Shown here one piece after another: positions 16,108 through 35,158 of a stretch of DNA of 47,723 nt; the stretch's first letter is position 1, and each line of letters opens with the position of its first letter. The stretch comes from a virus. The stretch covers positions 1 through 47,723 of the IMG/VR virus record IMGVR_UViG_3300025695_000021, one strand, 5' to 3'. The notes beneath the pieces are model-generated. The model was not told the DNA's origin. It made no database searches and saw only the letters and a program-made list of their open reading frames with translations. Both the position numbers and the translations under genes were made by a program.

Positions 16108-19100
16108 ATGGCTAGAATTAAAAAATATTCACCCGAACAAAAACTATCATCATTTCAAACTCTTATATTAGATGAAAATCCAAATTCGGATTATTTTAGA
16201 ATAACTGAGTTTAAAGATACATTTACTGGTGGTAAGAATGGATTTCTTATAGAAGGTTCTCAGTATCTAAAGGAATCAACTGAAATTAAAATTGAACTTT
16301 TAGATGTAGAAGGTAATCCTATATACTTTGAGCCGGGTAATGGTATCCCAGAATACTATGAGGGTATTTCTAAATTAATAGCTGTTTACATATATAACGA
16401 TACTCCAATTGGATTAGGTAAGATTACTGTTTTAGGTGAACTTAAAAAATACGATGATAATGGTGTAATACGAGATGTACCAGAACAATGGAAAGGAACT
16501 TACAATTGTAAGTGGGAACGAACATTTCAAATAAACAAATCACTTGCTAACGAAGATAAGGTTAGGTTTTATCGTAGACCTCAAGTTACAATCGGTGAAA
16601 TAGTAAAACCTATTTTTAGTGGTAACCCACCATCGGTAACTCAAACTGGTTCGGTTGATGGTATTCCATTAGTTCCACTTGCAGGAAGTAATGTATCGGA
16701 TTTTATATTACCTACAAGTTACCGATTAAAAGTTAACTCTGGTAATAAATGGACTGGCTCGGTTGAAGGTGAAAAAATAACATTTGATAATATAACATAT
16801 TCTCCAATAATTGAAGAAGTTGTAAATGAAACTGAAATAATTGTATCACCTCCATATGCAGAAGATAATATTGTAACATCATTTACAAATGAAGATTACT
16901 CAGTAGAGTTTCCATATATAGAAGGTGTTGGTGATTTAGCAACAGCACTAACTGGTTCTTTTGCTAAGATTAGTATTACTGACATGAAAACTTTTGTAGG
17001 TGATGCTGCAAGAGTAAAGGTATTTAGACGGTCTCAAAATAACTTAACTGATTTTGAATTTGTACAAGAGATACAATTAGAATCAAATGAGTTACTTAGA
17101 GATATAACAACATTTGCTAAAAAAGAAGAACCATATGGATTCTTCTCTCAAGCAGTATTAGATGATTATTGGGTAACCTCATCAATTGATTTTGATGTTA
17201 CATTTAATCAAAACTTTTTATACAATTCAGCCAAGTTAAATTCCACTCCTACAAATTACTTCTTTACATCTGAGAGTTTTGCTATTCAGAGTGGAGTTGA
17301 ATATACATTAGATTTAAATGTAAGAAAAGAAACAACTGACCCTAATGCTTATTTAAAAGTATTTTTAAGTGGTTCATATAATGGTAAGGGTGTAGAACAA
17401 CAAATAGCAAATTTACCTTCAACAACTGGAATACTTCAGAAAACAAACTTTAGTGAAAATATAGTAGCAAATAATTTTGATAACGCCGAACTATATTTTG
17501 AAGTAAGTGGTAGTGATTGGTATGTAAATAATGTAAGTTTAAAAGCATCACAAGAAACATCGTTTTCTCCAGATGAGATTACATTTATACAACAAGTACC
17601 TAAACTATTAGTAGAAGAAACATTTGATTATCGTTTTGAATTTTACGATATCAATAACAATTATATTCCAATAACAGTAGAAGATACAAAAACATTTAGT
17701 GGTGGTAACACCAATCTATTTGAAAAAAGTATTGAGTTAACTCCTCAAAATTTATACTTCTCGTTTGATTCAGCATCTAATCCAGCTAATGCAGTACCAC
17801 CTCTAACAATAGCAATTGATGTTGATACCACATTGGTAACTGGTTCTATAACTTATACATCTGGTGCATATGATTTCTTTGGAAATCTATTATCCTCATC
17901 ACAATATGCTGGTGGTATTTATCCTGGTTATTTAACTAATTGGGATGTAGATGGTGGTAGAGAACCATTTTTAAGAGTACAAGATTTTACTGGTTCTAGA
18001 GATGATATATCAGTTCAGTTCATTAGATATACTGGTGCCATTGAAGGAGTTTCTGACACCTTCGTAATTAGTAGAGTTGAAGATGGTAAAGGTGGTGTTA
18101 GTTTTGAGATAGTACCATTTAGAGGAGTTCAGATAAAAAATAAAGAATCTAAGACTTTAGAAATACAGGCAGTAAGAGTTGATGGTATAAATAGAATAGA
18201 TTTAATATCTGGTTTAGATAGGGGATTCTCTGATGCTAAATTACATTTATTATCATCATCATTGGATGGTACTCAAACATATGTATCACTTTCACAGGCA
18301 ATTGAAAACCCTGACTTTATAGAAGGTATAAGTGTTGGTACAACTGGTAGTGGTGAGATTGATTATAATGCTACATTTACTAGAGACGCAATTGATAATG
18401 AGTTGACTGTTTATCTTATGGATGGGCCAACAACTGAATCTATTTTAACATCACAAATTCTAACTGATTTAAAAGATGGTTTGAATCCTGGTTTGATAAC
18501 ATCAACTGCAGACCAATTTAATATAAAATACAAACCAAGGGAAGCATTCTCGTTTGACCCATCTCAGATAATTGTAACATCATCATTCCAACAAAGAGGT
18601 AGTACTCTAAATCCATTAACTGCTAGTTTGGTTGTAAAACCATCGGCATCGATTCAACCTCTAACTGAACTACCTGAGTTATTTGTATTTTATGATACTG
18701 GTGCTTTTGATGATACAATAACAGTGGCTGTTACTAATGCAGTAGGTGATTCAATAGATAGTGGATTTCCTGGTGACAGTGTTCCGTATTATACTGCTAC
18801 TCAAACAAAACAATTAAACTTTGAATTTACATATACTGAACCAATTACTTCTGCGTCTGTAACTGCAAATAAATCTTTTTTTATTACACCTGATGGTTTA
18901 CCTGGCCAAGATTCTATTGTTATTGATATAGACCCAAATCCAATTTCATTAGGTTCAAATCATAAAGGTGATGTTTACAACTATGAATTAGCTGATACCG
19001 ATGTACAAATAACACAAGGTGATTTATTTTTAATAAATACTGGTAGTGGTAATCCTGGTACATTTACAACAACATCGGTTGTACCTACTAATATAGTTTT

Positions 19101-22100
19101 CGAAACCTTAGTTGGTGATTCAACAACAACAATGAGTTTGGCTGGATTTGAAACAATGTCAGCAATTAGTGCAAGTGTACAATTTAACTTTAATATATTT
19201 CCATACTTTACGGCATCCTTAATAACTGCAAGTAAAACACAAAAGTTTACAAAGATAGTAGATGGGGGTGGGCCAATTGAAGTAACATTAGACCCAATAG
19301 CCACTGCACTAAACGCCGATGAAATAGGATTTGTTTCTAATTATTCAAGTGCAACAACTGAAGTATTTATAAAACAAGACGATGAGTTCTTCTACTATGA
19401 TGAATTCGATGGAGGTAGACCAGGTACATTTGTAACGGAATCTATAACACAAAGAAATATACAATTTTCAGAAGTTTCATCTTCATTTAGAGATTTAATT
19501 GCATCTGGTAGTATATCTTCATCTGGTGGAGAGATATTACACTTTAAGGGATTTGGTGGATTGGCAAACAATCAACCATCTGCTAGTATCACATATAACT
19601 TTAAGGTTTATCCTTATTCATTAACTGGTGGTGTGGCTGGTGTTCCTAGAATAGTTTCAAAAACACAAACATTCTCAAAAGTAAATGATGGAACTGCTGC
19701 AAGAAAAGTAAGTTTAGTTGCAAGTAGTGATGTAGTTGTCTACAATGGAGATGGTATTAAAGTTGCACCGGCAGGTGATGTTAATTTAACGGCAACTGCA
19801 ATAAACGTAACTGGTTCTGCTTTCTTTACATTCTTAAATAATGATGGTTCTACGATACAAGCAACATCAACTGATAATACAACAACAGTTGGTGATTTAC
19901 CTGCAACTGGCTCAACAAAAACATTTACAGTTGAACTGAGAGATGGTTTAGCAACTGGACCAATTGTAGATACCGATAGTGTAACTATTTCTGGTGTTGG
20001 TGAAGGTGCAACTGCATATTCCGCACAACTTTCTAATCCTGCATCTTCTATAACTGTTGAAGTTGATGGTTCAACATTCTTTGAAAACGCAGGTACACTA
20101 ATAAGAGCATACAAAGGTGGAACTGAATTACAATATGTTGAAGAGTATGATGAGGCCGCAGTTGATCCGGTAACATTTTTACCAATTGGTACATTCGGAC
20201 AATTCTCTGCATCGGTAGACCAAATATCAACTTATCTAACACAAGGTACTTTAGGTAACGGCAAGGCAATAGCAGAAACATCAGGTCAATTATATGCATC
20301 TGCCTCACTTATAACTAATTGGAATTCACCTCAACAAAATACACAAGGGTTTGTAATATACAAAATAGATTTTGAAAATGGTAGAGCCACTCAATTTGTA
20401 CAACAATCATTCTCAGCTGTATTCGAAGGAGCAACTGGCCCTGGTATTGTAATGAGGGGTGAGTGGACAGGTAGTATTGCATACATATTTGACCAAGGTA
20501 ACCAACGAAGAGATGCTGTACTTAGAGATGTTAGTGGAACAACTCATTATTGGGCAACAACACAATTAGTACCATCTGGTTCGGAATACACCGATGGTGA
20601 TGATGTTTACACAATAGAACCTATACTACCATCACAAACAAATCCAGATGGTACTTATGTTGCAGGAACTATTGATACTAATGGTTGGGAATATTTAGGT
20701 GCACAAGAACTATTTGTTGCAGCTAAGATTGCAATATTTGATGAATCATTTGTAAAAAATACAATTAACGTTGGAAACGTTGATTATAATGTTAATCCTC
20801 AAATAGCTATTGTTGGTGGAACTAATGAACCTTATATATCGGTAGGACAAAGTATTCAAGGATTTGCACAACAAGGTGCATATCTAGGTTCAACTGAAGA
20901 TGGTGGACCAGGAACTACCGCCGGTGGTTTATTATCACTTTCAGGTGACCCAACTCAAGCATCATATAATGCATTATCATGGAATGGTGAAACACTTACA
21001 ATTAGAGGAGCTATAAAACAAACTCCAACTGGAGCAAGTGAACCTCAACTAAGAGGTATATGGGCAACTGGTATAGATTATGCAGCTGATGATTTAGTTA
21101 TCTATAACGGACAAAGTTGGACAGCTAATTCTGCACACACATCAAACATATCAGGAAACGCAACGGATGGTCCACCGGCAACAGGACCTTGGACTGCTGC
21201 ATCTGGAACTGGTAAGACTGTTTCATTAGCAGCTGATACTTTTGTAATTGAATATGACCAAGATGGTAACAACCCATCACCATCTTCAATTAACTTATTC
21301 GCATCATCATCTAACTTCATAGACCCATATTTTAAATTTACTGGTGGTGGTACAATTTGGACTGGTGATGATACTACATTTACTGATGGTTCTGATACTA
21401 ACAACGATATTGTAAGTAGTATTGATTTAAGTGGAACAACAATATCAGATTTACCACTTCAATTTAGAGTTGGTGTTTCGGATGGTGGGTTAAGTGGACA
21501 AGGACAAGTAGAACTAATTAGTGATGTAATTAACATATTTGGTGTAAAGCCAGGCTCGGATACTGTACCAAACTTTTTCATTACTCCAGTATCTGGTGGT
21601 ACTCAAATAAAAAATAGTAGTGGTACTATTGAACTAAAAGCTCAAAAGGCAGATATAAATGGTGTAACTGATGTAGTAGGTGGTAGTACTGATGCACGAA
21701 TTTATGATGGTAATACTTTACTTGCTGTACAAACTGGTGTTACTGCTGTTGTAAGTGCCGCAGCACCATATAATCCAACCATTGACAAAGACTTCATTAA
21801 TGGAACTAAAACACTTTTACTAAAAGATAATAGTGGTAATGTATTAGATTCAATAACATTATTAGATGTAACTGATGGTTTAGGTGGTGGTTCATTTATT
21901 GCATCATCCCTAAAAACAAATAGAGATACATCGGTTACTCCAAACACATTTTTTCCAAGTTTCTTATCCGCAACCGCATCTTTCTACGATACATCTGGAC
22001 AAGAATATCAAGGTAGAGTTCAAATAACACCATCTTTAGTGGGTAGTACAGACCATATGGCTGTTAGTACAAAAACCGGTAATGTACAAGTGGTGATTCA

Positions 22101-25100
22101 AGCCAATGATGGAGATGGTACATCAATTACATTAGGTGGTTCATCAGTAGCAACAAAAGATGTGGTATTAAAAGCACTATTCTCTGACCCAGCAACTGGA
22201 CAGGTTACCACAACAACTGAAACATTCTATATTGTATCTGATGGTGTGGATGGTATTGATGCAATAACTGTAATTAATACAAATCAAGCACATACAGTTC
22301 CAGCTAATTCAGATGGTACATTGGGTAGTGGTGCTCTTACTAATAGTGGTACAATAATTACGGTATATGAGGGTGTAACTCCATTAGATTTTACAACTGG
22401 TACTGCTGGTAATGGTCAATATACAATAAGTGTAGGTTATGTTGGTACTGCAACTTTAGGTAGTATAACTGCAGTTGGAACTTCACCAGTCACAGCAGAA
22501 GTTGCTGATGCAACTGGTATGACTTCTACACAATTAATTATAACCTATACGATTAGTGGTAAACGAACAGGTGGTGCAGTATTTACATCAACAACTACAC
22601 AAACTTTAACTAAAACAAATGCTGGTATCAATGGAGCTGCAGCAGGTATAGTATATGCTGGTGAGTGGAAGTTAACAAAAAACGATGGTAGTTCTCCTGC
22701 TTATGATAATAAAGTTGTATATCTTGGGGAGGATGATTTACAATATGTAGTTAAACATAATGGTAGTTACTATGTATGTTCCATAACTCATAGATATGCT
22801 GGTGTTTGGGATATTAATGAGGATTATTTAGACGGTGATGTTGTTTTGGATTCGGGTACTTATTATCGTGCAGGACAAGATATACCTACTGGTGATTATT
22901 ATCCTGGTGACCCAGAGTGGCCATCAGTTGGTTCATCTATTGAACCTGGTAGTACTCAAACCGGAGGTAACTTTTGGGAATCATTTGGAGCAGAGTTTAC
23001 TTCGGTAGCAACTGATATTCTTTTTGCTGAAGATGTATATGCTAATAGAACGATAAATGTTGGTACGGGTGAAAATAATAAACCTGTTATATCACTTAAT
23101 GCTGATACTGCAAATGGTAGTGCATCTCCATTTATTTCAATAGGACAATCAACTCAATCATTTGAAGAAGATGGTATATTCTTAGGATATCCAAGTGGAT
23201 TAGCATCACCGGTAATGTCACTGGTAAGTGGTAGTGATTACTTTGTATATAATGATGGAATAATTGCACTTTCAAATGCAGCAATGGTTGGAACTGGTTC
23301 TACTATAACAGGTCCTTCTCTTAAAATTGGATATGATAATAATTCATTATATCCAAACACCGATGCAAGGGGTTACAATTTCACTGTAAGTACTGATGGT
23401 ATTGTATCTGCATCTGAAGCAAACATAAAAGGAACAATAGAAGCTTCGGCTGGTAATATTGGACAATGGATAATTACACCGCCTGAGAATGATGCACAAG
23501 GTAATTCAATTGGTGGTATTCTACAAGATGATGATGGTGAAATACGATTTAATCCTAACAATGCAGAAATACAAATTTTTAGCGCATCATTTGAGGAGAC
23601 ATCAATAGAAGCTCCAATGTCAACTACAAGGACAATGGTAGTAACGGCTCAAAATGATATATTCTATATAAATGTCGATGGTACTAATTCAGAACAAGCT
23701 CCAATATTACATTTAGAAAGAAGTTCATACTCAGATGATATTCCCAACTACTCAACAAAAGTACAACCATATGGTTATCGATTTGATTTATCATCTAACA
23801 CTCTAAGTGGAAAGCAATTTAGTTTCTCAATGAGAGAAAATGGTCAAGGTACATATGGTGGTAGATATAATAAGTCAACCACATTAGATACAGATATCAA
23901 CGGCCAGAGGTTCTTAATCATAACAAGTAGTGCGGCAATTGGTACTGCTGGGGCATATATTGATATCACACCATCATCGAGTATGGTTTTAGGTGGAATA
24001 GGAAACGGATTAATTGGCGATCCTGATGGAATGGAATTTTGGTATTATTGTGAAAACCATGTTGGTGCGGGTAATCGAGTTTATATATATGATAATGGTA
24101 AGGCAGTTACCACTGAGGCTAATTATACTGAAAGAGTAACAGTAGGAGCTCAAAACTCATTTACGTCTCCAACTGGAGACGACTTCACTTTTTCATTTGG
24201 TACACCAAGCCCCTCAGGAGGCCAAACATTTAATGTGACCTTTAATGGAATTACTACTACAACTTACCCTGGTAGTGTGGATATAAAAACAGTAGAGCAA
24301 TTGACTATGGCATCAAACGCAGTTACCTTACCTGCAGGCCCAGTCACACTTGCTGATATTGATTATCCATCTATTACCGCAAAAAGTTCTGGAGTTGGAG
24401 AATCAGAGTTCGTATCCTTAGAACCGTCGTACACACCATCATATGAAAATCAAGTTCATGGTGGAAATAGTTTAAGGTTCTTTTTGACAGCAGGTTATAG
24501 AAATATTAGACAATATTTGGAAGTATATAATTCTACTACCAATGAAATAATAGGTACAAAATATTTAAATTCAGCAATTGCTTATGGGGCAAAAGAAAGT
24601 ACTCATCAATGGACAGGCCAAAGTACTGGGGGCCAATTCTCTGTTATTGGTACTACTGAAATTACTTTAGAAGATGGTACTACCAAGTTAGCAAAAGATA
24701 TTACTTTAAATGATAGAATTTTATCTTGGGATAGTGGTACTAATATGTGGGTATCTGCAGGATTATCTGATATTAAAAAACGAAATGTAAGTGAAGTTTA
24801 TAAACTAAGTGTTGATGGTAATGATATTGAAGTATCGGATTCGCATGGATTTTGGTTGTTTGGTAATGAAATAAATTCAGGTCAAATAACAGCAAACGAA
24901 TTATACAAAATTAAAAAAGCTGGTTCATCAACGACACAAGATAGTTTAAAATTGTGGATTAAGGATGGTGATTCAAAAAAGAAGGTTGCTATAACCAATA
25001 TTAGAAAAATTGAAAAAGAAGAAGAGGTAATAACCTTTAGTGTACCAAACTATGTAAACTATGTTTCAAATAATATTATTTCTCACAACGCTGCCGGTAA

Positions 25101-26070
25101 TTACACCTGGAATCAACAAACATTGTCATATTCATCAAATCAAACTATTATTTCAACCGCTGCAGGTGGTACTACTTCATTCGAGTTAGATATACCATCA
25201 GCCGGCGATTACAAAATACGATTCAGACTAGAGTTAAAATCTAAAGCAAGACAGAAGATAGAGATAACAAGAGACTCTTCAGCAACTTCTACAATTACAT
25301 TTACTGCAGTCAGTACCACATTTAACTCGTCTAGTTCTGGTGCTACCCTTTATGCTAATAATGCAAGTCAAGTAGCATCTCTATGGAGACCAGATGTTCA
25401 AATTCAAAAAAATAATAACTTTGTTGAAATCGTTCCTGCCGGAATACAAGTAGTATCTGGAACTGGTAGGTATAGTAGATTAAGTAGAAGAGACCAAGGT
25501 GCTACTGATATTGAACTATTAGAAGTAATTGATGGTAGTGTAAAAATTCAATCAAGAAAGTCTGTATCTGTCCCTGGCTCAACCACAGATAATGATAAAA
25601 TTGGAATTGAAGTAGATGGTGATATAGTACCAGAAACTAATACTACATGGGATATTGGTAAATCCAACAAATATTGGGAAAATGGATACTTTGTACATCT
25701 AAATGGGTCATATTACAACGCTAGTATGAGAACCCTACAAGCTGCAGCTAAATTTACTCAATTTAATAATAACGCAACTCCATCAATTTCAGTTGATATG
25801 AATATAGCTTCCATAACAAGAGTTAGTGAAGGAGTATATACAGTAACTTTCGATAATACTTCAACCTTCACTCTCAGTACATCCATAGTGTCGGTAACTG
25901 GTCATGGTGTAGCTGGAGATAATAATTCTCAAAATCTTGGAGATGATGAGTTTACCCGTAACTGGGGTGTACTGGTTGAGTCCAGTAATATAAAAATTAA
26001 CTCTAAAGATAATAATACAGATGGTAATTCAGATTTTGAAGTATGTTACCTTATGGTTTTTGGTAGATAA
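16108..26070 (+). CDS. Giant tail-fibre/tail-tip protein with intein-like Hint domain (3320 aa)
   Basis: The longest gene; probably the main host-recognition fibre or tip protein. The N-terminus (FKDTFTGGKNGFLIEGS, then KVRFYRRPQV) resembles the virion-attachment region of fibre proteins in marine T4-like phages. The middle is a chain of beta domains: a tandem pair at ~936-1051 and ~1056-1194 (ITQGDLFLINTGSG..PGTF against IKQDDEFFYYDEFDG..PGTF), and GEW modules near 1451 and 2186. A chitin-binding-type segment lies near 1650 (GIWATGIDYAADDLVIYNG) and another near 2230-2270. Residues 2845-2994 form a Hint domain. The C-terminus has a fibre-tip pattern (TWDIGKSNKYWENGYF). No frame break is present. 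Small genes at 26085 and 26375 follow, the second chaperone-like. Confidence 0.82.
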   Translation: MARIKKYSPEQKLSSFQTLILDENPNSDYFRITEFKDTFTGGKNGFLIEGSQYLKESTEIKIELLDVEGNPIYFEPGNGIPEYYEGISKLIAVYIYNDTPIGLGKITVLGELKKYDDNGVIRDVPEQWKGTYNCKWERTFQINKSLANEDKVRFYRRPQVTIGEIVKPIFSGNPPSVTQTGSVDGIPLVPLAGSNVSDFILPTSYRLKVNSGNKWTGSVEGEKITFDNITYSPIIEEVVNETEIIVSPPYAEDNIVTSFTNEDYSVEFPYIEGVGDLATALTGSFAKISITDMKTFVGDAARVKVFRRSQNNLTDFEFVQEIQLESNELLRDITTFAKKEEPYGFFSQAVLDDYWVTSSIDFDVTFNQNFLYNSAKLNSTPTNYFFTSESFAIQSGVEYTLDLNVRKETTDPNAYLKVFLSGSYNGKGVEQQIANLPSTTGILQKTNFSENIVANNFDNAELYFEVSGSDWYVNNVSLKASQETSFSPDEITFIQQVPKLLVEETFDYRFEFYDINNNYIPITVEDTKTFSGGNTNLFEKSIELTPQNLYFSFDSASNPANAVPPLTIAIDVDTTLVTGSITYTSGAYDFFGNLLSSSQYAGGIYPGYLTNWDVDGGREPFLRVQDFTGSRDDISVQFIRYTGAIEGVSDTFVISRVEDGKGGVSFEIVPFRGVQIKNKESKTLEIQAVRVDGINRIDLISGLDRGFSDAKLHLLSSSLDGTQTYVSLSQAIENPDFIEGISVGTTGSGEIDYNATFTRDAIDNELTVYLMDGPTTESILTSQILTDLKDGLNPGLITSTADQFNIKYKPREAFSFDPSQIIVTSSFQQRGSTLNPLTASLVVKPSASIQPLTELPELFVFYDTGAFDDTITVAVTNAVGDSIDSGFPGDSVPYYTATQTKQLNFEFTYTEPITSASVTANKSFFITPDGLPGQDSIVIDIDPNPISLGSNHKGDVYNYELADTDVQITQGDLFLINTGSGNPGTFTTTSVVPTNIVFETLVGDSTTTMSLAGFETMSAISASVQFNFNIFPYFTASLITASKTQKFTKIVDGGGPIEVTLDPIATALNADEIGFVSNYSSATTEVFIKQDDEFFYYDEFDGGRPGTFVTESITQRNIQFSEVSSSFRDLIASGSISSSGGEILHFKGFGGLANNQPSASITYNFKVYPYSLTGGVAGVPRIVSKTQTFSKVNDGTAARKVSLVASSDVVVYNGDGIKVAPAGDVNLTATAINVTGSAFFTFLNNDGSTIQATSTDNTTTVGDLPATGSTKTFTVELRDGLATGPIVDTDSVTISGVGEGATAYSAQLSNPASSITVEVDGSTFFENAGTLIRAYKGGTELQYVEEYDEAAVDPVTFLPIGTFGQFSASVDQISTYLTQGTLGNGKAIAETSGQLYASASLITNWNSPQQNTQGFVIYKIDFENGRATQFVQQSFSAVFEGATGPGIVMRGEWTGSIAYIFDQGNQRRDAVLRDVSGTTHYWATTQLVPSGSEYTDGDDVYTIEPILPSQTNPDGTYVAGTIDTNGWEYLGAQELFVAAKIAIFDESFVKNTINVGNVDYNVNPQIAIVGGTNEPYISVGQSIQGFAQQGAYLGSTEDGGPGTTAGGLLSLSGDPTQASYNALSWNGETLTIRGAIKQTPTGASEPQLRGIWATGIDYAADDLVIYNGQSWTANSAHTSNISGNATDGPPATGPWTAASGTGKTVSLAADTFVIEYDQDGNNPSPSSINLFASSSNFIDPYFKFTGGGTIWTGDDTTFTDGSDTNNDIVSSIDLSGTTISDLPLQFRVGVSDGGLSGQGQVELISDVINIFGVKPGSDTVPNFFITPVSGGTQIKNSSGTIELKAQKADINGVTDVVGGSTDARIYDGNTLLAVQTGVTAVVSAAAPYNPTIDKDFINGTKTLLLKDNSGNVLDSITLLDVTDGLGGGSFIASSLKTNRDTSVTPNTFFPSFLSATASFYDTSGQEYQGRVQITPSLVGSTDHMAVSTKTGNVQVVIQANDGDGTSITLGGSSVATKDVVLKALFSDPATGQVTTTTETFYIVSDGVDGIDAITVINTNQAHTVPANSDGTLGSGALTNSGTIITVYEGVTPLDFTTGTAGNGQYTISVGYVGTATLGSITAVGTSPVTAEVADATGMTSTQLIITYTISGKRTGGAVFTSTTTQTLTKTNAGINGAAAGIVYAGEWKLTKNDGSSPAYDNKVVYLGEDDLQYVVKHNGSYYVCSITHRYAGVWDINEDYLDGDVVLDSGTYYRAGQDIPTGDYYPGDPEWPSVGSSIEPGSTQTGGNFWESFGAEFTSVATDILFAEDVYANRTINVGTGENNKPVISLNADTANGSASPFISIGQSTQSFEEDGIFLGYPSGLASPVMSLVSGSDYFVYNDGIIALSNAAMVGTGSTITGPSLKIGYDNNSLYPNTDARGYNFTVSTDGIVSASEANIKGTIEASAGNIGQWIITPPENDAQGNSIGGILQDDDGEIRFNPNNAEIQIFSASFEETSIEAPMSTTRTMVVTAQNDIFYINVDGTNSEQAPILHLERSSYSDDIPNYSTKVQPYGYRFDLSSNTLSGKQFSFSMRENGQGTYGGRYNKSTTLDTDINGQRFLIITSSAAIGTAGAYIDITPSSSMVLGGIGNGLIGDPDGMEFWYYCENHVGAGNRVYIYDNGKAVTTEANYTERVTVGAQNSFTSPTGDDFTFSFGTPSPSGGQTFNVTFNGITTTTYPGSVDIKTVEQLTMASNAVTLPAGPVTLADIDYPSITAKSSGVGESEFVSLEPSYTPSYENQVHGGNSLRFFLTAGYRNIRQYLEVYNSTTNEIIGTKYLNSAIAYGAKESTHQWTGQSTGGQFSVIGTTEITLEDGTTKLAKDITLNDRILSWDSGTNMWVSAGLSDIKKRNVSEVYKLSVDGNDIEVSDSHGFWLFGNEINSGQITANELYKIKKAGSSTTQDSLKLWIKDGDSKKKVAITNIRKIEKEEEVITFSVPNYVNYVSNNIISHNAAGNYTWNQQTLSYSSNQTIISTAAGGTTSFELDIPSAGDYKIRFRLELKSKARQKIEITRDSSATSTITFTAVSTTFNSSSSGATLYANNASQVASLWRPDVQIQKNNNFVEIVPAGIQVVSGTGRYSRLSRRDQGATDIELLEVIDGSVKIQSRKSVSVPGSTTDNDKIGIEVDGDIVPETNTTWDIGKSNKYWENGYFVHLNGSYYNASMRTLQAAAKFTQFNNNATPSISVDMNIASITRVSEGVYTVTFDNTSTFTLSTSIVSVTGHGVAGDNNSQNLGDDEFTRNWGVLVESSNIKINSKDNNTDGNSDFEVCYLMVFGR
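24640..25089 (+). other. Intein-like (Hint/BIL-type) domain inside the giant fibre
   Basis: Residues 2845-2994 (150 aa) show the intein blocks in order. Block A starts at Ser2845 (SVIGTTEITLEDGTT), where DG falls at positions 12-13 as in canonical inteins. Block B is VDGNDIEVSDSHGFW with its His. Blocks F/G are FSVPNYVNYVSNN and IISHN. The last residues are His-Asn (2993-2994). The +1 residue is Ala2995 instead of Cys/Ser/Thr, and the first residue is Ser rather than Cys. There is no homing endonuclease insert. This fits an A-type bacterial-intein-like domain, which can splice or cleave; activity is not provable from sequence. Confidence 0.8.
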
Positions 26071-26697: not shown

Positions 26698-26973
26698 ATG
26701 GCAAAGACAGAAAACTTAGAAAAGGAAATTTTAGATAGATTAAGATTCCTAAGAGATGAAACTGATAAGATTGTAATATTTTTAGGTCAACTTGCAGTGC
26801 AAGAAAGAACTATTAATAAAAAACTAAAAGAGATTTCTGATAATCAAGAAAAGTATGGTGCTATGAATGATAAGTACATATACGAATTGGAAGAAAAATT
26901 GGGAGAATTGGATAAAAAGTATAAGAATGGACAGATTGACCTAGATAAAGGTACAATAACTGTTGAAGAATAA
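26698..26973 (+). CDS. Coiled-coil protein, paralogue of 31547 gene (91 aa)
   Basis: A small, charged, almost wholly helical protein (ENLEKEILDRLRFLRDETDK; NKKLKEISDNQEKYGAM). Its C-terminus, NGQIDLDKGTITVEE, matches RGQLDLEKGTVTYNP in the 31547-31957 product, and both begin MAKxEN. The pair lies on either side of the sugar cassette. Function unknown. Proteins of this shape with a QxDLxKGTIT-type end occur in marine T4-like phages as unnamed genes, from memory. Its upstream AT-rich element differs from the usual late motif. Confidence 0.65.
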   Translation: MAKTENLEKEILDRLRFLRDETDKIVIFLGQLAVQERTINKKLKEISDNQEKYGAMNDKYIYELEEKLGELDKKYKNGQIDLDKGTITVEE

Positions 26974-27005
26974 TTTGGATAATTGAAATTATTTTCGTAT
27001 CTTTA
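26974..27005 (+). promoter_or_regulatory. Bacteroidetes-type promoter for heptose cassette
   Basis: TTTG at 26974-26977, exactly 20 nt, then TATCTTTA at 26998-27005, 35 nt before ATG 27040. It starts at the stop codon of the preceding gene. The four-gene sugar operon therefore seems to be read by host RNA polymerase, separately from the structural genes. Confidence 0.65.
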
Positions 27006-27039
27006 CATTGTAAAGTGCATCTAAGCATCTAAATAGGTT

Positions 27040-29229
27040 ATGGTAAAGAAAAAACTACTTTATGTAGCATCTCATCTTTCAACAGGTGGAATGCCACAAT
27101 ATCTTCTTAAACAAATACAAACTTTTAGTAATGAGTTTGATATTCAAGTTATAGAATACAATGACCATAGTGGTGGTGTATTCGTAGTTCAAAAAAATCA
27201 AATCGGTGATTTAGTAACTCTTCATACTTTATATGAAGATAAAGGAAATTCATTTATAAAAATTATAGATGATATAAAGCCTGATATAATTCATTTTACT
27301 GAAATACCAGAACATTTCATAGACCATTCAATATTGGATAAGATTTTTGGAAACAAAAATAGAAAGTTTGATATAGTTTGTTCAACACATGGTTCTTTCA
27401 CAAACCCAGATGAAATTAAATATCATCCAGATAGATACATCTTAGTATCGGAGTGGAGTAGACAAAGATTTGAACACTTGGGAATAGATACCAAAGTTTG
27501 GCAATATCCTATTGAAGATTTTAAATACGATAAAGATAAAGCGAAAGAAGAACTGGATTTTGAAAAAGATTGGAAACACGTTCTTATGGTTGGGTTATTT
27601 TCAGTCGGTAAAAACCAAAGTGAAATATTTGATGTAGCTAGATTATTAGAGAAGTATAAAATTAAATTTCATTTTGTAGGAAATCAAGCAATGAATTTTG
27701 AAGATTATTGGAAACCACTTATGGATTTCAAACCGAAGAATTGTATTGTATGGGGTGAACGAACTGATACTGATATGTTTTATAAGGCATCTGATTTATT
27801 TTATTTTAGTTCAACTTTAGAACTAAATCCACTTTCTATTAAAGAAGCACTTTCGTATGGACTACCATCTATATTCAGACGATTACACACATTTTTAGAT
27901 ACATACGATAATACCGAGTTGGTAACCTATATCGATGATGATATTCATAAAACAAAAAATTTGTTACAAGAAACTCTACAACCAGAGTTTAATGAAATTC
28001 CTGGTTGGTTTTCTTATCAAAAATTATATGATGAAGTAATTGATAAATTACCAAATAATTCTAGTGTAATAGAACTTGGTTCTTGGATGGGAAAATCTAC
28101 AAATTATTTTGCTACAAAATTAAAGGAAGCAAATAAAAATGTAAGATTCACTTCTATTGATACATTCAAAGGTTCGGTTGGATATGATAACTTATTACAT
28201 AGAACAATGTTAAAACCATTTGATGGTGATTTATATACCGAGTTTTCTAATAATTCAATCATATCAAATAACTTTGATAACATACAAGTAATAAAAGATA
28301 CATCTGATAATGCTAAAAATCTTTTCTTAAATAACTCACAGGATTTCATAATGGTTGATGCCGGACATGACTACGATGATGTTAAAAATGATATAAACAA
28401 TTGGTTTTATAAAGTTAAACCAGGTGGTATAATAGCTGGAGATGATTATGATTATGAAACTAATTTATTTGAGGGATTGACCAAGGCAGTTAACGAATAC
28501 TTTTATGGACAAGTAACATCTAAAGAAGGTTGGGTATGGTATAGAAAAAGACCCCGTATTCAAATAATTCACATGATGACAAACCCAAATGACATCAGAG
28601 AAAAGATTAGTGAGAAGTCACTAAAACAACTCCAACGTTGGGGATTCGATTATAAACCAATGGTAAACGATGTATATGATGGATTACCACCATCTGAGTT
28701 TTGTAGAAGACCAGAAGATATATCAGAAACTCCAACATATCATGGTGAATTTGGTACGGGTAAGATTACTGGTAGACATTATGGTTGTTATTTGGCACAC
28801 ATAAATGCATTAAAAGAAATAGATACTGATAATTATGATTACACTTTAATATTTGAAGCAGATGCATTTATTTATTCTAATTTAATAGATTTTGTAGATG
28901 TAGTTAATAAAGCATGTTTCATATCAGAGAGGGATGATGTACCATTTATATCATTTGCTAATAATATATCATGGAATCGTTCAAATGTAGATGACACGTT
29001 TGCAGAAACCGATTATAATCAAGATTGGGCTCATGCATATCTGATACCAAATAGAGACAAGCAATGGTATATGGATAGAATCAAAGATTGTGAATGGGAT
29101 GTTGCTGATTTGTGGTATAATCATGTATTTTTTAATCATAGACGAAAACGATACACAACAAATTATCCTTTTTCAAAGCAAGCAGAAGGATTATCATTGT
29201 TAGATAATACAAATAAAAGTTGGAAATGA
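27040..29229 (+). CDS. GT4 glycosyltransferase - SAM methyltransferase - GT25-like fusion (729 aa)
   Basis: Three enzyme domains in one chain. Residues ~1-318: GT-B fold glycosyltransferase, family 4-like (SHLSTGGMPQYLL, VCSTHGSF, and the E-x7-E motif E261..E269 in LELNPLSIKEALSYGLPSI). Residues ~325-505: class I SAM methyltransferase (SVIELGSWMGKS with E345/G347; MVDAGHDYDD near 440; PGGIIAGDDYDY). Residues ~506-729: family-25-like glycosyltransferase (GRHYGCYLAHINALKE from 578; LIFEADAF near 606, usually EDD). It overlaps the heptosyltransferase gene by ATGA. It probably builds or caps a glycan together with the downstream heptose genes. The acceptor is unknown and family assignments are by motif. 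Confidence 0.8.
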   Translation: MVKKKLLYVASHLSTGGMPQYLLKQIQTFSNEFDIQVIEYNDHSGGVFVVQKNQIGDLVTLHTLYEDKGNSFIKIIDDIKPDIIHFTEIPEHFIDHSILDKIFGNKNRKFDIVCSTHGSFTNPDEIKYHPDRYILVSEWSRQRFEHLGIDTKVWQYPIEDFKYDKDKAKEELDFEKDWKHVLMVGLFSVGKNQSEIFDVARLLEKYKIKFHFVGNQAMNFEDYWKPLMDFKPKNCIVWGERTDTDMFYKASDLFYFSSTLELNPLSIKEALSYGLPSIFRRLHTFLDTYDNTELVTYIDDDIHKTKNLLQETLQPEFNEIPGWFSYQKLYDEVIDKLPNNSSVIELGSWMGKSTNYFATKLKEANKNVRFTSIDTFKGSVGYDNLLHRTMLKPFDGDLYTEFSNNSIISNNFDNIQVIKDTSDNAKNLFLNNSQDFIMVDAGHDYDDVKNDINNWFYKVKPGGIIAGDDYDYETNLFEGLTKAVNEYFYGQVTSKEGWVWYRKRPRIQIIHMMTNPNDIREKISEKSLKQLQRWGFDYKPMVNDVYDGLPPSEFCRRPEDISETPTYHGEFGTGKITGRHYGCYLAHINALKEIDTDNYDYTLIFEADAFIYSNLIDFVDVVNKACFISERDDVPFISFANNISWNRSNVDDTFAETDYNQDWAHAYLIPNRDKQWYMDRIKDCEWDVADLWYNHVFFNHRRKRYTTNYPFSKQAEGLSLLDNTNKSWK

Positions 29230-30368
29230 TTTACGATAAAATAAAAAGAAATCAGAATAATATTATAGATATTAAAAACAGAGTTTTGATATCATATGTT
29301 AAAGGCCCAAAAGTTGAAATTGTAGGTTCAATTGATGCAACTTACAAAATAGAATTTATAGATACCAAAACAAATATAAAACATTTTGAAAGTGAGTTAA
29401 AAACCAATCATTGGGCTAAGTCAAATTTAGAATATTTTTGTAATTGGAAAATAGTTATAACCGAAAATGGAAAACCATTCTATCAAGATATCTTCAATGC
29501 AAAAGATAAAAGAGTTTATGTAGCAATGGATTCTAGAGCATTGGGTGACACGTTGGCATGGATTCCTTATGTAGAAGAGTTTGGAAATATACATGGTTCT
29601 AAAATGATAGTTTCAACGTTTCACAATAACCTACTCGAAAAACAATATCCAAATATAGAATTCAGAGAACCAGGTGAAGAAGTTCCTAATTTATACGCAA
29701 TGTATTCATTAGGTTTATTTTACAATGAGGATGGTAATATTAATCACTTTAAAAATCCAATAGACCCAAAGAAACTTACAATGCAAAAAATGGCAACTGA
29801 TATATTGGGATTGGAATACAAAGAAATAAAACCAAAGTTAGAAGATAGAAAAGTTAAAAAAGATGATAAACTAATCACAATAGCAATACATGGAACTGCA
29901 CAACCAAAATATTGGAATAATCCAACTGGTTGGCAAGATGTTGTAGATTGGTTAAATGATAAAGGATATAAAGTCAAACTATTATCAAAAGAGAATTCTG
30001 ACTATATGGGTAACAAACACCCAAATGGAATAATAAAACACCCAGAAGGCTCATTAGAATCAGTTATGGATGAAATGGCTAAATCAAAAGCATTCATTGG
30101 TATTGGTAGTGGATTAAGTTGGTTAAGTTGGGCGTTAGGAACAAAGACAGTTTTGATTAGTGGATTCTCAGAGGATTGGGCAGAAATGAAAGATTGTGTA
30201 AGAATAGGTTCACCCAAAGGAAAGTGTAGTGGGTGTTTTAACCGATTAAAGTTAGACGCTGCTGATTGGAACTGGTGTCCAGACCACAAAGGTACTAATA
30301 GACAATTTGAGTGTACTAAAGAGATTACATCGAATATGGTAATAAGTGAATTAAAAAAGTTTTTATAA
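29226..30368 (+). CDS. Autotransporter-type (TibC/Aah-like) O-heptosyltransferase (380 aa)
   Basis: Resembles bacterial autotransporter heptosyltransferases, which add heptose from ADP-heptose to Ser residues of beta-helical surface proteins. The N-terminal ~85 residues form the family's beta domain (RVLISYVKGPKVEIVGS). The GT core has RALGDTLAWIPYVEEFG, FREPGEEVPNLYAMY and IGIGSGLSWLSWALG. A metal-binding Cys finger like that of TibC is visible at C334-x2-C337, C351 and C363 (GKCSGCFN, NWCPDH, FECTKE). I start at ATG 29226, overlapping the previous TGA, not at a TTG two codons earlier. The next gene starts directly after its stop. The adjacent ADP-heptose genes support the donor assignment. 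Confidence 0.82.
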   Translation: MIYDKIKRNQNNIIDIKNRVLISYVKGPKVEIVGSIDATYKIEFIDTKTNIKHFESELKTNHWAKSNLEYFCNWKIVITENGKPFYQDIFNAKDKRVYVAMDSRALGDTLAWIPYVEEFGNIHGSKMIVSTFHNNLLEKQYPNIEFREPGEEVPNLYAMYSLGLFYNEDGNINHFKNPIDPKKLTMQKMATDILGLEYKEIKPKLEDRKVKKDDKLITIAIHGTAQPKYWNNPTGWQDVVDWLNDKGYKVKLLSKENSDYMGNKHPNGIIKHPEGSLESVMDEMAKSKAFIGIGSGLSWLSWALGTKTVLISGFSEDWAEMKDCVRIGSPKGKCSGCFNRLKLDAADWNWCPDHKGTNRQFECTKEITSNMVISELKKFL

Positions 30369-30752
30369 ATGAAAATTTGGATTAATGGTTGTTTCGATGT
30401 TCTTCATCACGGACACTTTCAATTAATTGCACATGCAAAATCATTGGGAGATGAACTAACAATAGGAATTGATTCTGATAGAAGAGTAAAAGAATCAAAA
30501 GGAGATGGTAGACCTTTTCATACTCAAAAACAAAGAATATATAATCTATTTCAGATTAGTGGAGTTAATGGTATTGTGGTATTTGATACCGATAAAGAAT
30601 TATCAGATGCTATAAAAGAATATCAACCAGATATTTTTGTAATTGGAGAAGAATATAAAGATAAAGGTATTATCGGTAGAAAACATGCTAAGAAAATAGA
30701 ATACTTCCCAAAGGTGGAGGGATTCTCAACAACAGGTTTATTAGATGAATAA
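30369..30752 (+). CDS. rfaE2: HldE C-domain-like heptose 1-phosphate adenylyltransferase (127 aa)
   Basis: Nucleotidyltransferase equivalent to the C-terminal half of HldE/RfaE, which joins heptose 1-phosphate and ATP to give ADP-heptose. The cytidylyltransferase-like signature is complete: INGCFDVLHHGHFQLI at residues 5-20, with the HxGH-type motif (HHGH 13-16). GRPFHTQKQRIYNL and FVIGEEYKDK also fit the family, as does the end (VEGFSTTGLL). It begins directly after the heptosyltransferase stop and overlaps the kinase gene by 8 nt. The two halves of HldE are separate here and in reversed order. A generic glycerol-3-phosphate-type cytidylyltransferase is the alternative, less likely beside the kinase. 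Confidence 0.82.
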   Translation: MKIWINGCFDVLHHGHFQLIAHAKSLGDELTIGIDSDRRVKESKGDGRPFHTQKQRIYNLFQISGVNGIVVFDTDKELSDAIKEYQPDIFVIGEEYKDKGIIGRKHAKKIEYFPKVEGFSTTGLLDE

Positions 30753-31500
30753 AGTATTAGTTATAGGAGAACAATGTGATGATATCTTCATTTATGGAGA
30801 TACACCTAGACTTTCACCTGAAGGCCCGGCACCTGTATTTATTCCAAAGAGAGAAGTTTACAATGGTGGGATGGGAATGAATGTTTGTAAAAATTTAGAA
30901 GAATTAAAAATAGATACTGATTTCAAACATCAAAAAAATCCTATAACAAAGACAAGACATATTCACGAATCATCAAATACTTTATTATTAAGAATTGATG
31001 AAGAAAAAAATATAGATAGGATTGATAATAAAAGATTAATCGATATCGATTATTGGAATTACTCGATAATAGTGATTTCAGATTACAATAAAGGTTTTCT
31101 AACTGAAGAAGATATTGCATACATCGGATTTAAACATCCAAATGTAATTTGTGATACCAAAAAGCAGTTAGGAAATTGGTGTAAGGATTTACGATTCATA
31201 AAACTAAATCGTTCAGAGTTTGAAAACAATGAAGAATTCATTCAAGAAAACGATTGGATTTTAGAAAAGTTAATAATTACATTAGATAAGGATGGATGTA
31301 TGTACAAAGGTATATCATATCCAACCGAAAAAGTAGAGATAATGGATATCTCAGGAGCTGGTGATACATTTGTAGCAGGATTTGTGAAAATGTTCTTAGA
31401 TACTGATGATATTTCAAAATCAATACAATTCGGAAATCGTTGTTCAGCACAAGTTGTACAAAAGCGAGGTGTTACAACAATAGATTACGAAAACTTATAA
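30745..31500 (+). CDS. rfaE1: HldE N-domain-like heptose 7-phosphate kinase (251 aa)
   Basis: PfkB/ribokinase-family sugar kinase resembling the N-terminal half of HldE, which phosphorylates heptose 7-phosphate at C1. Matching segments are LSPEGPAPVFIPK followed by GGMGMNVCKNL (HldE: ISPEAPVPVV..GGAANVA), IIVISDYNKGFL, KLNRSEFE, IITLDKDGCMY, and the catalytic GAGD at 204-207 (MDISGAGDTFVAGF). At 251 aa it is shorter than typical HldE kinase domains (~310 aa), mainly in the lid region, but the active-site motifs remain. Last gene of the cassette. Isomerase, phosphatase and epimerase steps (GmhA, GmhB, HldD) are not in this window. Confidence 0.8.
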   Translation: MNKVLVIGEQCDDIFIYGDTPRLSPEGPAPVFIPKREVYNGGMGMNVCKNLEELKIDTDFKHQKNPITKTRHIHESSNTLLLRIDEEKNIDRIDNKRLIDIDYWNYSIIVISDYNKGFLTEEDIAYIGFKHPNVICDTKKQLGNWCKDLRFIKLNRSEFENNEEFIQENDWILEKLIITLDKDGCMYKGISYPTEKVEIMDISGAGDTFVAGFVKMFLDTDDISKSIQFGNRCSAQVVQKRGVTTIDYENL

Positions 31501-31546: not shown

Positions 31547-31957
31547 ATGGCAAAAAAAGAAAACAAAACATCAATTGATTTGGTAACGGTTGAACTATCG
31601 AAAGATAAAGTAGATGAAATCAAAGGATACAACGGGAAGTTACAACAAGTAATGACACAACTTGGACAAATACACATCAGAAAAAACGAACTACATAGTG
31701 AGTTAGAAAAAATTGATGAAGCAGTTGGACAAGCTGAAGATATGTTTAAGGAAACTAACTCAGAAATGAGAAAGGAATTAAATAAATTGGAAAGAGATTA
31801 TCCAAGAGGTCAATTAGATTTGGAGAAAGGTACGGTTACTTACAACCCAGCTATCAAAGAACAAATGGAACAACAACAACAACAAGGTGGAGCTCAGATG
31901 GGTGACAATGGTGTTGGAGGAGGTGATGTTGTAAATTCACCATTCGTTCAGGTATAA
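31547..31957 (+). CDS. Coiled-coil protein, paralogue of 26698 gene (136 aa)
   Basis: A helical, charged protein (LQQVMTQLGQIHIRKNELHS; MRKELNKLERDY) whose RGQLDLEKGTVTYNP motif matches the C-terminal NGQIDLDKGTITVEE of the 26698-26973 product. A Gln/Gly-rich, poorly ordered tail follows (QQQQQGGAQMGDNGVGGGD). Function unknown. It has a late-type motif, whereas its paralogue has a different upstream element, so the two may be expressed at different times. Confidence 0.65.
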   Translation: MAKKENKTSIDLVTVELSKDKVDEIKGYNGKLQQVMTQLGQIHIRKNELHSELEKIDEAVGQAEDMFKETNSEMRKELNKLERDYPRGQLDLEKGTVTYNPAIKEQMEQQQQQGGAQMGDNGVGGGDVVNSPFVQV

Positions 31958-32014: not shown

Positions 32015-35000
32015 ATGAACGAATTATCCCAATTTTTAGTAGAGAGTATATTATTAGGTGAAACGGACAGTGTAGACAACAAAGTTGTAGTTTACGCTGG
32101 CCGTTTTCAACCGTTTCATAAGGGGCATTACGCAACCTACTCTCATTTAGTAAAAAAGTTCGGTAAGAATAATGTGTACATTGGTACATCTAATAAAACC
32201 GATAATAATAAATCTCCATTTAACTTTAAGGAGAAAGTGATGATTATCACAAAAATGTTTGGAATTCCTTCCAGCAGAATCATTGAAGTAAAAAATCCAT
32301 ATGTACCAACTGAGGTACTTAAAAAATTCGATAAAGATACTACGGCATTTATCACAGTAGTTGGTAAGAAAGATGCTAGTAGATTAGGTGGTAAGTTCTT
32401 TACACCTTATAAAGATAACTTAGACTTCGAAGGATATGAGGATAAGGGGTATGTTTATATCGCTCCTAATCAATCTAATCCAATTAGTGGAACTGAAGTT
32501 CGTAATGGATTAAAATCAGGTTCAGATGATGATAAGAAAGATTTCTTTTCAAAAAGAGCATATCCAAAATTTGATAAAAAGATATTTGATTTTATAACAA
32601 ACACATTAAACGAAGATTTTACTATTTCAAAAGAAGTAGTAGAAGAGTGGTTAATTGAAAATGTTGATTTAATTAAAGAAGCATCATCTACTATGGGTAA
32701 AACCGCAGTTGATGATGGACCTAATTATATCTTTCCATCTTATGCAATATTCGATAGAGTTTCTAAGAGAAGAGCAGAGGCAATAGGATATACTGTTTTA
32801 TCACAAATAATGACTGATGAACTTACTGATATAGACCCACATCCAATTTATCCTGATGGGCCTGTAAAAGCAGTAACTCCATATCCTGCAGGTGTTGCTG
32901 GTAAAACAACCGCAACTAACCAAAAAGATTTTTATGGTACTGATGCTTACAACAAATGGTTCAAGCACGTAACTAGACTTGCTGGATTGGTAGGATATTC
33001 TTTACTTAATTTTGCTGACTTAAAGGATGATAAAAAACAATCAACTAAAGATTTATCAAACGAAAAGAAACCATCAACTAATACAATAGAAGAAGATATT
33101 AAATTACCAGTAAACATAGGAGATACAATTCTAACTGGTAGATTTAAAAACAAAAAAACAATCATCAAAACAATTGGTAAAGATGAACATGGGATGCCAA
33201 CTATAAATGGTAGAAAGGTAGTAAACTTTAGAATTGTTAAAGAGGGTACTATTAATGAAATTCCAATGGCTGATTTGGTGAAGATTGATAAGTATGCTGA
33301 TAAACAACTTAATCCAGTAGATATAGTTCTAACTGATAAACATTTCTTCGATAGGTTAACTGACCCACGAAACAAAAAAGAAATATCACAAGCTGAATTA
33401 ATTGGATTCTTTAAAAGATTAGGAAAAAAGAAAAAAGAATTTGTAAACTTCCTCAATCAGTACAATCAAGTTGTAGCAAAAGATAATAGAACAAATCTTA
33501 ATATTCCATTTATGAAACAAGCGAATAAAGTAATCGCTAAAACCATAATGAGAAAAGATGATTTTAAAACATCAGACCCAGAATATAAATTTGAATCATT
33601 ACCAACTAAAGTTACTGATAAGTTTAAAGCTGTAAAAAGTGGTAAACCTTCATCAGAAGCTGAAAAAGATTTTAATAAACATCATCAAACATCTGCAATT
33701 GCAAAAAGAGGTTCATTGGCTGAACCCGATACTATTGATTTTGATGATGATGGAAAAACACCAGGTCATCAAAACAAAGAAAAGGATACTAAGAAAAAAG
33801 GTTACGAACCTGTAACTGAAAAAGTAGTAGGTAATAAAATTGTATGTGATAAGTGTGGTTGGAATTGGAAAATATCAGAAGGTGGTAACGATTTATACAT
33901 TTGTCATAAATGTGGTAATGATAACACTCCTAAGTTAAGTGAAGGATTACTATTAGAAGGTGGAGCATATGGACATATGAATCACCCATTCGATACAGAA
34001 ATTAATTTAACGTTTGGACAACTTAAAGATATTGTAAATAAAGCATTAGAAGGAAACTTAGATTTAGCTAGAGAAAAGACAGATGGTCAAGCATTGGCAG
34101 TTAGTTGGAGAGATGGAAGATTAGTTGCGGCAAGAAACAAGGGACATTTGAAAAACAAAGGTGAAGGTGCATTAGATATTAATGGTGTAGCGATGAAGTT
34201 TGCTGGTAGAGGAGAATTGGAAAAGGCGTATAACTTCGCAATGAAAGATTTAACGAAGGCAATATCTAAGTTGAGTGAGAAACAAAAAGATAAGATTTTC
34301 AAAGGAGGAGCTTGTTTTATGAATTTAGAAGTTATCTATCCAACTTCTGTTAATGTAATACCTTATGGTCAAGCACTACTCGTATTTCATGGGACTATGG
34401 AATACAACGTTGATGGTATTGCCATTGGAGAAAATCAAGAAGCTGCAAGAACACTTGCGGGAATGATTAAACAAGTAAATGCTGATGTACAATCTGCATA
34501 TACTATTTCTGGTCCTCCAATTAATCAATTACCTAAATCAAACGATTTAAGAAAACTAAAAGGTTCTTATAATTCTAAGATATCAAAATTACAATCTAAA
34601 TTCAAATTAAAAGATAACGATGGAATCGCTGATTATCATCAAGCTTTTTGGATGGATTTTGTAAATAAGAAATCTCCAACTAAGTTAGATAACAAAACTC
34701 TAATGGGATTAGTTAAGAGATGGGCATTCTACGATAAATCATTTAGATTAGATAGGAAAAATCTAACTGATGTAAAAACAATGGAATGGGCAAGGGGAAT
34801 TGATAAGAATGACCACGCTAAAATGGCTAAAGATAATATTAGACCATTCGAAGATATCTTCTTAGGTATCGGAGCAGATATACTTTCATTTATGAGTTCA
34901 GTATTAGCAGCTAACCCTGATAAAGCAGTTAGGGATATGAAAAAGAGACTGGATAAAACAATTCAAGACGTTAAGAAATCAGGCGATGTTAAGAAAATTA

Positions 35001-35158
35001 ATAAACTTAAATTAGAACTACAAAGGTTGAACGCTATTGGTGGTACTAATAAGATAGTTCCTAATGAGGGTATCGTATTTGTATATGGTGGTAAGACTTT
35101 CAAACTTACTGGAACATTCGCTCCACTCAATCAGATACTCGGTTTATTTTACGAATAG
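32015..35158 (+). CDS. NMNAT-like / zinc-ribbon / ligase-like multidomain protein (1047 aa)
   Basis: Residues ~23-205 match an NMNAT/cytidylyltransferase-like domain (VVYAGRFQPFHKGHYATY with the HxGH-type motif; ISGTEVRNGLKSG), which in relatives transfers AMP to nicotinamide mononucleotide. A middle region of unknown fold follows (GPNYIFPSYAIFDRVSKRR). Next is a zinc ribbon, C611-x2-C614 and C630-x2-C633. From ~650 comes a ligase-like nucleotidyltransferase domain, with a candidate AMP-accepting Lys K688 in REKTDGQALAVSW and later motifs FMNLEVIYP and YNVDGIAIG. The N-terminus (MNELSQFLVESILLGE) looks like a short capsid-targeting helix. Candidate prohead-protease sites lie at domain borders (after E222, E643, E648). 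Domain calls are by motif; substrates are unknown. Confidence 0.7.
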   Translation: MNELSQFLVESILLGETDSVDNKVVVYAGRFQPFHKGHYATYSHLVKKFGKNNVYIGTSNKTDNNKSPFNFKEKVMIITKMFGIPSSRIIEVKNPYVPTEVLKKFDKDTTAFITVVGKKDASRLGGKFFTPYKDNLDFEGYEDKGYVYIAPNQSNPISGTEVRNGLKSGSDDDKKDFFSKRAYPKFDKKIFDFITNTLNEDFTISKEVVEEWLIENVDLIKEASSTMGKTAVDDGPNYIFPSYAIFDRVSKRRAEAIGYTVLSQIMTDELTDIDPHPIYPDGPVKAVTPYPAGVAGKTTATNQKDFYGTDAYNKWFKHVTRLAGLVGYSLLNFADLKDDKKQSTKDLSNEKKPSTNTIEEDIKLPVNIGDTILTGRFKNKKTIIKTIGKDEHGMPTINGRKVVNFRIVKEGTINEIPMADLVKIDKYADKQLNPVDIVLTDKHFFDRLTDPRNKKEISQAELIGFFKRLGKKKKEFVNFLNQYNQVVAKDNRTNLNIPFMKQANKVIAKTIMRKDDFKTSDPEYKFESLPTKVTDKFKAVKSGKPSSEAEKDFNKHHQTSAIAKRGSLAEPDTIDFDDDGKTPGHQNKEKDTKKKGYEPVTEKVVGNKIVCDKCGWNWKISEGGNDLYICHKCGNDNTPKLSEGLLLEGGAYGHMNHPFDTEINLTFGQLKDIVNKALEGNLDLAREKTDGQALAVSWRDGRLVAARNKGHLKNKGEGALDINGVAMKFAGRGELEKAYNFAMKDLTKAISKLSEKQKDKIFKGGACFMNLEVIYPTSVNVIPYGQALLVFHGTMEYNVDGIAIGENQEAARTLAGMIKQVNADVQSAYTISGPPINQLPKSNDLRKLKGSYNSKISKLQSKFKLKDNDGIADYHQAFWMDFVNKKSPTKLDNKTLMGLVKRWAFYDKSFRLDRKNLTDVKTMEWARGIDKNDHAKMAKDNIRPFEDIFLGIGADILSFMSSVLAANPDKAVRDMKKRLDKTIQDVKKSGDVKKINKLKLELQRLNAIGGTNKIVPNEGIVFVYGGKTFKLTGTFAPLNQILGLFYE

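Follow-up and report, generated by a model that had tools for sequence, protein, structure and literature searches.

A phage gene cassette with a TibC/Aah-type heptosyltransferase and its probable role in glycosylating collagen-like fibres

IMG/VR record IMGVR_UViG_3300025695_000021, a 47.7 kb fragment of a T4-like phage that was analysed over its whole length (the window), carries a cassette built around a TibC/Aah-type protein O-heptosyltransferase. Judging from sequence, the cassette is probably a virion-glycosylation module, which would O-heptosylate collagen-like fibres of the phage and then extend the glycan. It consists of four coupled genes at 27040-31500, between the gene of a fibre-like protein of 3320 amino acids (aa) and a nucleotidyltransferase gene (NTR). 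The cassette contains the following elements:

26974-27003, plus strand: Bacteroidota-type promoter driving the cassette, TTTGG-(19 bases)-TATCTTTAC
27040-29229, plus strand: fusion protein of 729 aa, with a glycosyltransferase family 4 (GT4) domain at about aa 1-318, a methyltransferase 24 domain at aa 344-470 and a GT25-like domain at about aa 507-729
29226-30368, plus strand: TibC/Aah-type O-heptosyltransferase (TIGR04414) of 380 aa
30369-30752, plus strand: HldC-like (RfaE domain II) nucleotidyltransferase of 127 aa with an HHGH motif (phrog_7878)
30745-31500, plus strand: short HldA-like (RfaE domain I) PfkB kinase of 251 aa with a GAGD motif (phrog_8133)

The heptosyltransferase and its fibre partners

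The 380 aa protein matches TIGR04414 with 264.4 bits (1.4e-78), against a curated equivalog cut-off of 200, and covers model positions 18-373 of 374. Its sole match in the PDB is TibC (1.5e-48). Asp108, Thr224, Lys228 and Trp299 correspond to Asp110, Thr226, Lys230 and Trp305 of TibC, where the first is the catalytic base and the other three contact the sugar phosphate (PMC4358343), and Cys334, Cys337, Cys351 and Cys363 correspond to the cysteines of the TibC iron finger. All eight positions are invariant in the 116 rows of a first set, nearly all of them from the window's clade and some near-copies, and likewise in 80 of 80 further distinct phage members. A single scan returned more than 500 stretches encoding phage relatives, from aquatic phages up to jumbo size.

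Proteins with Gly-Ser-Ser and Gly-Thr-Ser repeats were first noticed beside the enzyme gene in several unrelated, distant phage contexts, and the association was tested on loci that were fetched later. Among the distinct viral loci from outside the window's clade, 58 of 80 contain a Ser/Thr-rich Gly-X-Y run of at least 15 triplets (up to 861 were observed), with GTS, GSS and GTN as the main triplets. The nearest repeat gene lies at a median of 1.1 kb from the enzyme gene and is directly adjacent to it in 20 cases, which is closer than random open reading frames (ORFs) of the same locus. When only loci of at least 12 kb are considered, repeats are present in 54/65 compared to 1/56 controls centred on the terminase (Fisher 4.5e-22); after clustering at 70% identity the counts are 41/48 and 1/12. 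The reverse test shows a similar tendency: 50 contigs were picked from matches to the repeat pattern alone, mostly for their length and irrespective of the enzyme, and 18 of these carry TIGR04414 above its cut-off, against none of 37 controls. Both partners are also present in a 735 kb uncultured phage record.

The acceptor repeat of the known autotransporter system, TIGR04415, has no match in the window, and among 12 records there is one weak match of 15 bits compared to a cut-off of 30. An earlier prediction for this stretch (the original prediction) had placed the 380 aa product in the TibC/Aah family and had given it a Cys finger; the hidden Markov model search agrees with the former, and the finger proves to hold the four iron-finger cysteines. 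The same prediction mentioned beta-helical surface proteins as known targets of TibC/Aah enzymes; here a beta-helix of the TibA/AIDA type is probably not the substrate, given that TIGR04415 is absent and that the enzyme is accompanied in phages by Gly-X-Ser/Thr collagen-like fibres. The guess that the phage modifies "perhaps its own Ser/Thr-rich fibres" appears to be right, in so far as such fibre genes are associated with the enzyme family.

Ser/Thr-rich Gly-X-Y repeats also occur within the window's own clade: a search of 13 contigs, of which nearly all exceed the window in length, revealed them in 10. The repeat ORFs examined are mostly giant and fibre-like (approximately 2,800-3,900 aa; one record has ORFs of 897 and 1,082 aa) and have runs of 41-129 triplets. 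In the record of locus L009 the giant fibre ORFs are found past the capsid gene, on the side on which the window ends. The window itself contains one possible local acceptor:

16108-26070, plus strand: fibre-like protein of 3320 aa with 20.7% Ser+Thr, upstream of the cassette

Throughout, fibre identity is based on size, repeats and position. At the same place in relatives, 15 of 30 fibres retain Gly-X-Y runs of 5-11 triplets. The 3320 aa protein further contains a CBM_5_12 carbohydrate-binding module (21061-21192), just above the cut-off, and a weak intein/Hint-type splicing domain (24712-25089, aa 2869-2994; Intein_splicing, 3.8e-5), which is below it.

Some further arrangements are worth recording. 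In L371, L413 and L462 a second, shorter heptosyltransferase-like gene is located on the opposite strand, adjoining the fused gene and a giant Gly-X-Y fibre ORF. In bacterial cousins on chromosomes of Methylobacter, Polaromonas and a gammaproteobacterium (L122, L123, L124, L128) the enzyme gene adjoins small GTSG/GSSG proteins; these look secreted and are possibly a bacterial version of the enzyme-acceptor pair. In Bradyrhizobium (L135, L142-L145, L156) giant Ser/Thr-rich ORFs (2,600-3,300 aa) come immediately after the enzyme gene, an order that one would expect for the autotransporter type.

The remaining genes, their control and conservation

The 729 aa protein contains GT4 (PF00534, 2.1e-9) and Methyltransf_24 (3.2e-18) domains, while GT25 (PF01755) reaches 21.2 bits, just under the gathering score of 24. 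A sequence search of the PDB gave no match, and the protein was therefore placed through structure prediction: the predicted fold shows a BshA-type GT4 and a methyltransferase, with COLGALT1 among the matches (1e-7). In other phages, GT4 or GT4 plus methyltransferase is fused to the heptosyltransferase in one protein, and Microcystis phage Mel-JY01 carries such a fused form.

The kinase and the nucleotidyltransferase resemble the two halves of HldE. The kinase model has a predicted local distance difference test score (pLDDT) of 87, its seven best fold matches in the PDB are all HldA (E between 1e-17 and 5e-16), and its catalytic GAGD motif is invariant. Models for GmhA and GmhB matched neither the window nor the larger related contigs (12 records of up to 252 kb, which may be incomplete). 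This means that at most two steps of the synthesis of ADP-heptose (adenosine diphosphate heptose) are encoded by the phage. RfaE domain II is found in 140 of 149 genomes (108 above the cut-off) of the class of a Bacteroidota metagenome-assembled genome (MAG), a rough host proxy that was reached via an apparent phage contig binned with it.

The pattern TTTGG-N15..21-GTATMTT occurs four times in the window against 0.31 expected, once at 26974-27003 before the cassette, and further copies of the signal precede the primase gene and the ORF just upstream of it. Of the 56 distinct upstream regions of relatives, 50 contain TTTGG and TATnTT, in every case with a spacer of 19 bases; none of five other conserved genes (CC2, NTR, TerL, portal and the heptosyltransferase gene) is preceded by the pattern. 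TTTGG/TATnTT is what we take to be the Bacteroidota promoter consensus, which suggests that the host belongs to the Bacteroidota and that its polymerase expresses the cassette. A scan of the window for TATA-like late promoters was not significant.

All four cassette ORFs start with ATG; the first two overlap by ATGA at 29226, the second and third abut at 30368/30369 without a gap, and the last two share 8 nt (30745-30752). The gene order is maintained in dozens of contigs, so that the arrangement is not due to chance. The constant core among relatives is the GT4 protein together with the heptosyltransferase. Many relatives that retain the transferases miss the kinase/nucleotidyltransferase pair, intermediates without the kinase exist, and presence and absence of the pair require at least six state changes on the tree; being optional, the pair is read as a supply module. 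In most relatives the borders of the cassette are formed by two paralogues:

26698-26973, plus strand: CC1, a coiled-coil-like protein of 91 aa and paralogue of CC2, left border
31547-31957, plus strand: CC2, a CC1 paralogue of 136 aa, right border

These flank the cassette in dozens of contigs and could mark the route by which it entered. We rejected the idea that the cassette belongs to the core of the whole phage family, as it is missing from phages whose TerL falls in the same wider group; in L296 the fibre gene is directly followed by NTR, with no cassette between them.

Several statements of the original prediction on this part of the cassette hold. The four genes are tightly coupled with the overlaps it described, Pfam domains and predicted fold support a fusion of GT4 and methyltransferase with a GT25-like third part (GT25 itself scoring slightly below its cut-off), the host-type promoter is backed by its enrichment and conservation, and the HldE activities are indeed represented by separate HldA-like and HldC-like genes of the right family, though below equivalog thresholds. 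The claim that the phage makes ADP-heptose stands in part: the two HldE-like enzymes are present, but the whole route is not phage-encoded, as the gmhA and gmhB models found nothing.

Proposed route and competing explanations

In a virion-glycosylation module of this kind, host RNA polymerase would transcribe the cassette from the Bacteroidota-type promoter, probably early. The HldA-/HldC-like enzymes would top up the pool of nucleoside diphosphate heptose, most likely ADP-D,D-heptose, while heptose-7-phosphate and the phosphatase would come from the host, as neither gmhA nor gmhB turned up in the phage. The TibC-type enzyme would link heptose to Ser/Thr of the fibres, above all in collagen-like Gly-Thr-Ser and Gly-Ser-Ser stretches. 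The GT4/methyltransferase/GT25-like protein would then extend and cap the glycan, a role suggested by the domain fusions and the conserved gene order. A stable, stiff fibre made of proline-poor Gly-X-Y repeats may depend on O-glycosylation; Thr glycosylation has been named as a mechanism of collagen stabilisation (PMC3368898), and the repeats found here, being proline-poor, fit this. Other possible benefits are protease protection and receptor masking. Going further, phages may have turned the TibC/Aah family into a widespread glycosylator of proline-poor collagen-like fibres (GTS/GSS/GTN, up to hundreds of triplets), with the glycan replacing hydroxyproline as triple-helix stabiliser; we hold this with about as much belief as doubt. 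Equally balanced is our view that the window represents an elaborate form of the phage system, one that includes genes for sugar supply and a glycan-extending enzyme of three domains.

A number of observations weigh against O-heptosylation of collagen-like fibres by the cassette. There is no collagen-like gene inside the window, and in its 3320 aa fibre no Gly-X-Y run reaches four triplets. In the clade the collagen-like ORFs are tens of kb from the cassette rather than adjacent to the enzyme gene, so for this phage the acceptor, as predicted from relatives, likely lies outside the 47.7 kb. In the wider survey 22 of 80 loci, several of them short, have no such repeat. The TerL controls represent few lineages, with 5 clusters left at 60% identity, where p = 0.005, and phage lineages cannot be treated as independent of one another. 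The supply enzymes score 96.2 bits against rfaE_dom_II (equivalog cut-off 181.5) and 112.4 bits against rfaE_dom_I (cut-off 345), and the latter model exceeds the kinase in length by about 60 aa. Finally, the window protein has Val280 where membership of the family would lead one to expect Arg286 of TibC.

This arginine contacts adenine and is highly conserved in the family, and its Ala mutant is impaired (PMC4358343). Val, Ile or Leu takes its place in 116/116 rows of the first set, and a hydrophobic or small residue in 79 of the 80 other phage members, whereas 23 of 29 bacterial members retain it. Pro300 of TibC, the stereoselectivity residue (PMC4358343), corresponds to Gly294. With these replacements the donor specificity may differ from that of TibC, and ADP-heptose is a likely but not a secure donor. 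As the curated TIGR04414 model accepts the protein despite the lost arginine, it is filed as a sequence member of the family and not as an autotransporter enzyme.

The same replacements (Val, Leu or Ile for Arg286 in almost every phage member and, within the clade, Gly for Pro/Ser300) would suit a fibre glycosyltransferase that uses a donor other than ADP-heptose, with an altered nucleotide or another sugar-1-phosphate provided by the short kinase and nucleotidyltransferase. The sub-threshold scores of these two enzymes and their absence from many relatives also agree with this. Nevertheless, the kinase fold is nearer to HldA than to any other PfkB kinase, the nucleotidyltransferase scores best in rfaE_dom_II (96 bits, compared to 58 for glycerol-3-phosphate cytidylyltransferase), and RfaE domain II is common in the host-proxy class, so that we see only a small chance for a different donor. 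Somewhat better placed, though still unlikely, is modification of a host surface protein such as a Bacteroidota adhesin, which would block superinfection or hide a receptor during early host takeover. Known TibC/Aah enzymes do act on host autotransporters (PMC4358343), and the cassette shares its host-type promoter with the primase region; in phages, however, it is collagen-like fibre genes that accompany the enzyme. TIGR04415 is absent from the phage records, but under this explanation the repeat would sit in the host.

It is quite improbable that the cassette alters the lipopolysaccharide (LPS) or capsule of the host, like the sugar gene clusters of cyanophages with the same kinase/nucleotidyltransferase pair. 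The pair is homologous to genes of P-SSM2, S-SM2 and S-CAM3, and the transferase is weakly similar to LPS heptosyltransferase I, but at 30 bits compared to 264 for the protein O-heptosyltransferase model, and it shares the iron finger with the protein-modifying enzymes. In P-SSM2 (L162) and S-CAM3 (L164), moreover, the cluster bearing the pair sits between tail-fibre genes, which questions the reading as host LPS genes there as well. DNA hypermodification or another non-protein target is hardly credible: the middle domain of the 729 aa protein carries the PHROG label "DNA methyltransferase", yet Pfam and the fold group it with other methyltransferases and no base-modification gene is seen in the cassette.

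Surroundings, known systems and significance

Three proteins of the window match the PHROGs for portal, terminase and primase, and the terminase shares 55-56% identity with its counterparts in Flavobacterium phage immuto and Microcystis phage Mel-JY01. The phage is probably a virus of Bacteroidota bacteria. Rfam and tRNA searches gave no matches in the window. Directly upstream of the fibre gene lies a protein that may form part of the sugar module and apparently lacks the usual C-terminal domain:

15031-15852: UDP-glucose/GDP-mannose dehydrogenase-family protein of 273 aa

A 1043 aa ORF (11896-15027) matches SbcD-like and SbcC-like PHROGs and is an apparent fusion of both recombination nuclease subunits. 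A 1047 aa protein (32015-35158) has a cytidylyltransferase-like domain at its N-terminus and, by eye, a zinc-ribbon stretch together with a KTDG motif like that of nucleotidyl ligases.

Compared to TibC/AAH (TIGR04414; PDB 4RAP, 4RB4; PMC4358343), the window enzyme shows near full-length homology with the same catalytic Asp, sugar-phosphate contacts, iron-finger Cys and GT9-like domain. It differs in being phage-borne, in the Arg286 to Val and Pro300 to Gly replacements and in having no TIGR04415 acceptor; furthermore, the phage enzymes are linked or fused to GT4, methyltransferase and GT25-like domains and accompany collagen-like fibres. The supply pair shares with HldE/HldA/HldC the GAGD kinase fold, the HxGH nucleotidyltransferase and the adjacency of the genes, but consists of two separate short proteins below the equivalog cut-offs, with no GmhA/GmhB found. 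A homologous short kinase and nucleotidyltransferase occur in the three cyanophages; their clusters differ in having a carbamoyltransferase, an epimerase and a short isomerase alongside, and no TibC-type gene was found in those records. Gly-X-Y repeats are likewise known from collagen-like phage tail fibres (PMC3368898). Those of E. coli prophages are rich in Pro and charge and the recombinant protein was not glycosylated (PMC3368898), whereas the fibres beside the phage TibC-type genes are proline-poor with GTS/GSS/GTN triplets.

We found no paper that joins phages with an autotransporter or O-heptosyltransferase, or a heptosyltransferase with collagen-like proteins, though most subscription journals were outside the search and a prior description is possible. 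A few bacterial adhesins are known to be O-heptosylated; heptose coating of phages' own tail fibres is a use not described in the literature searched. Collagen-like, Ser/Thr-rich fibres are a statistically firm genomic partner of the family. If the proposal is true, the two would form a concrete enzyme-acceptor pair and a large class of phage fibres would be glycosylated by phage-encoded enzymes, which matters for how phages are annotated, how they recognise hosts and how stable their fibres are.

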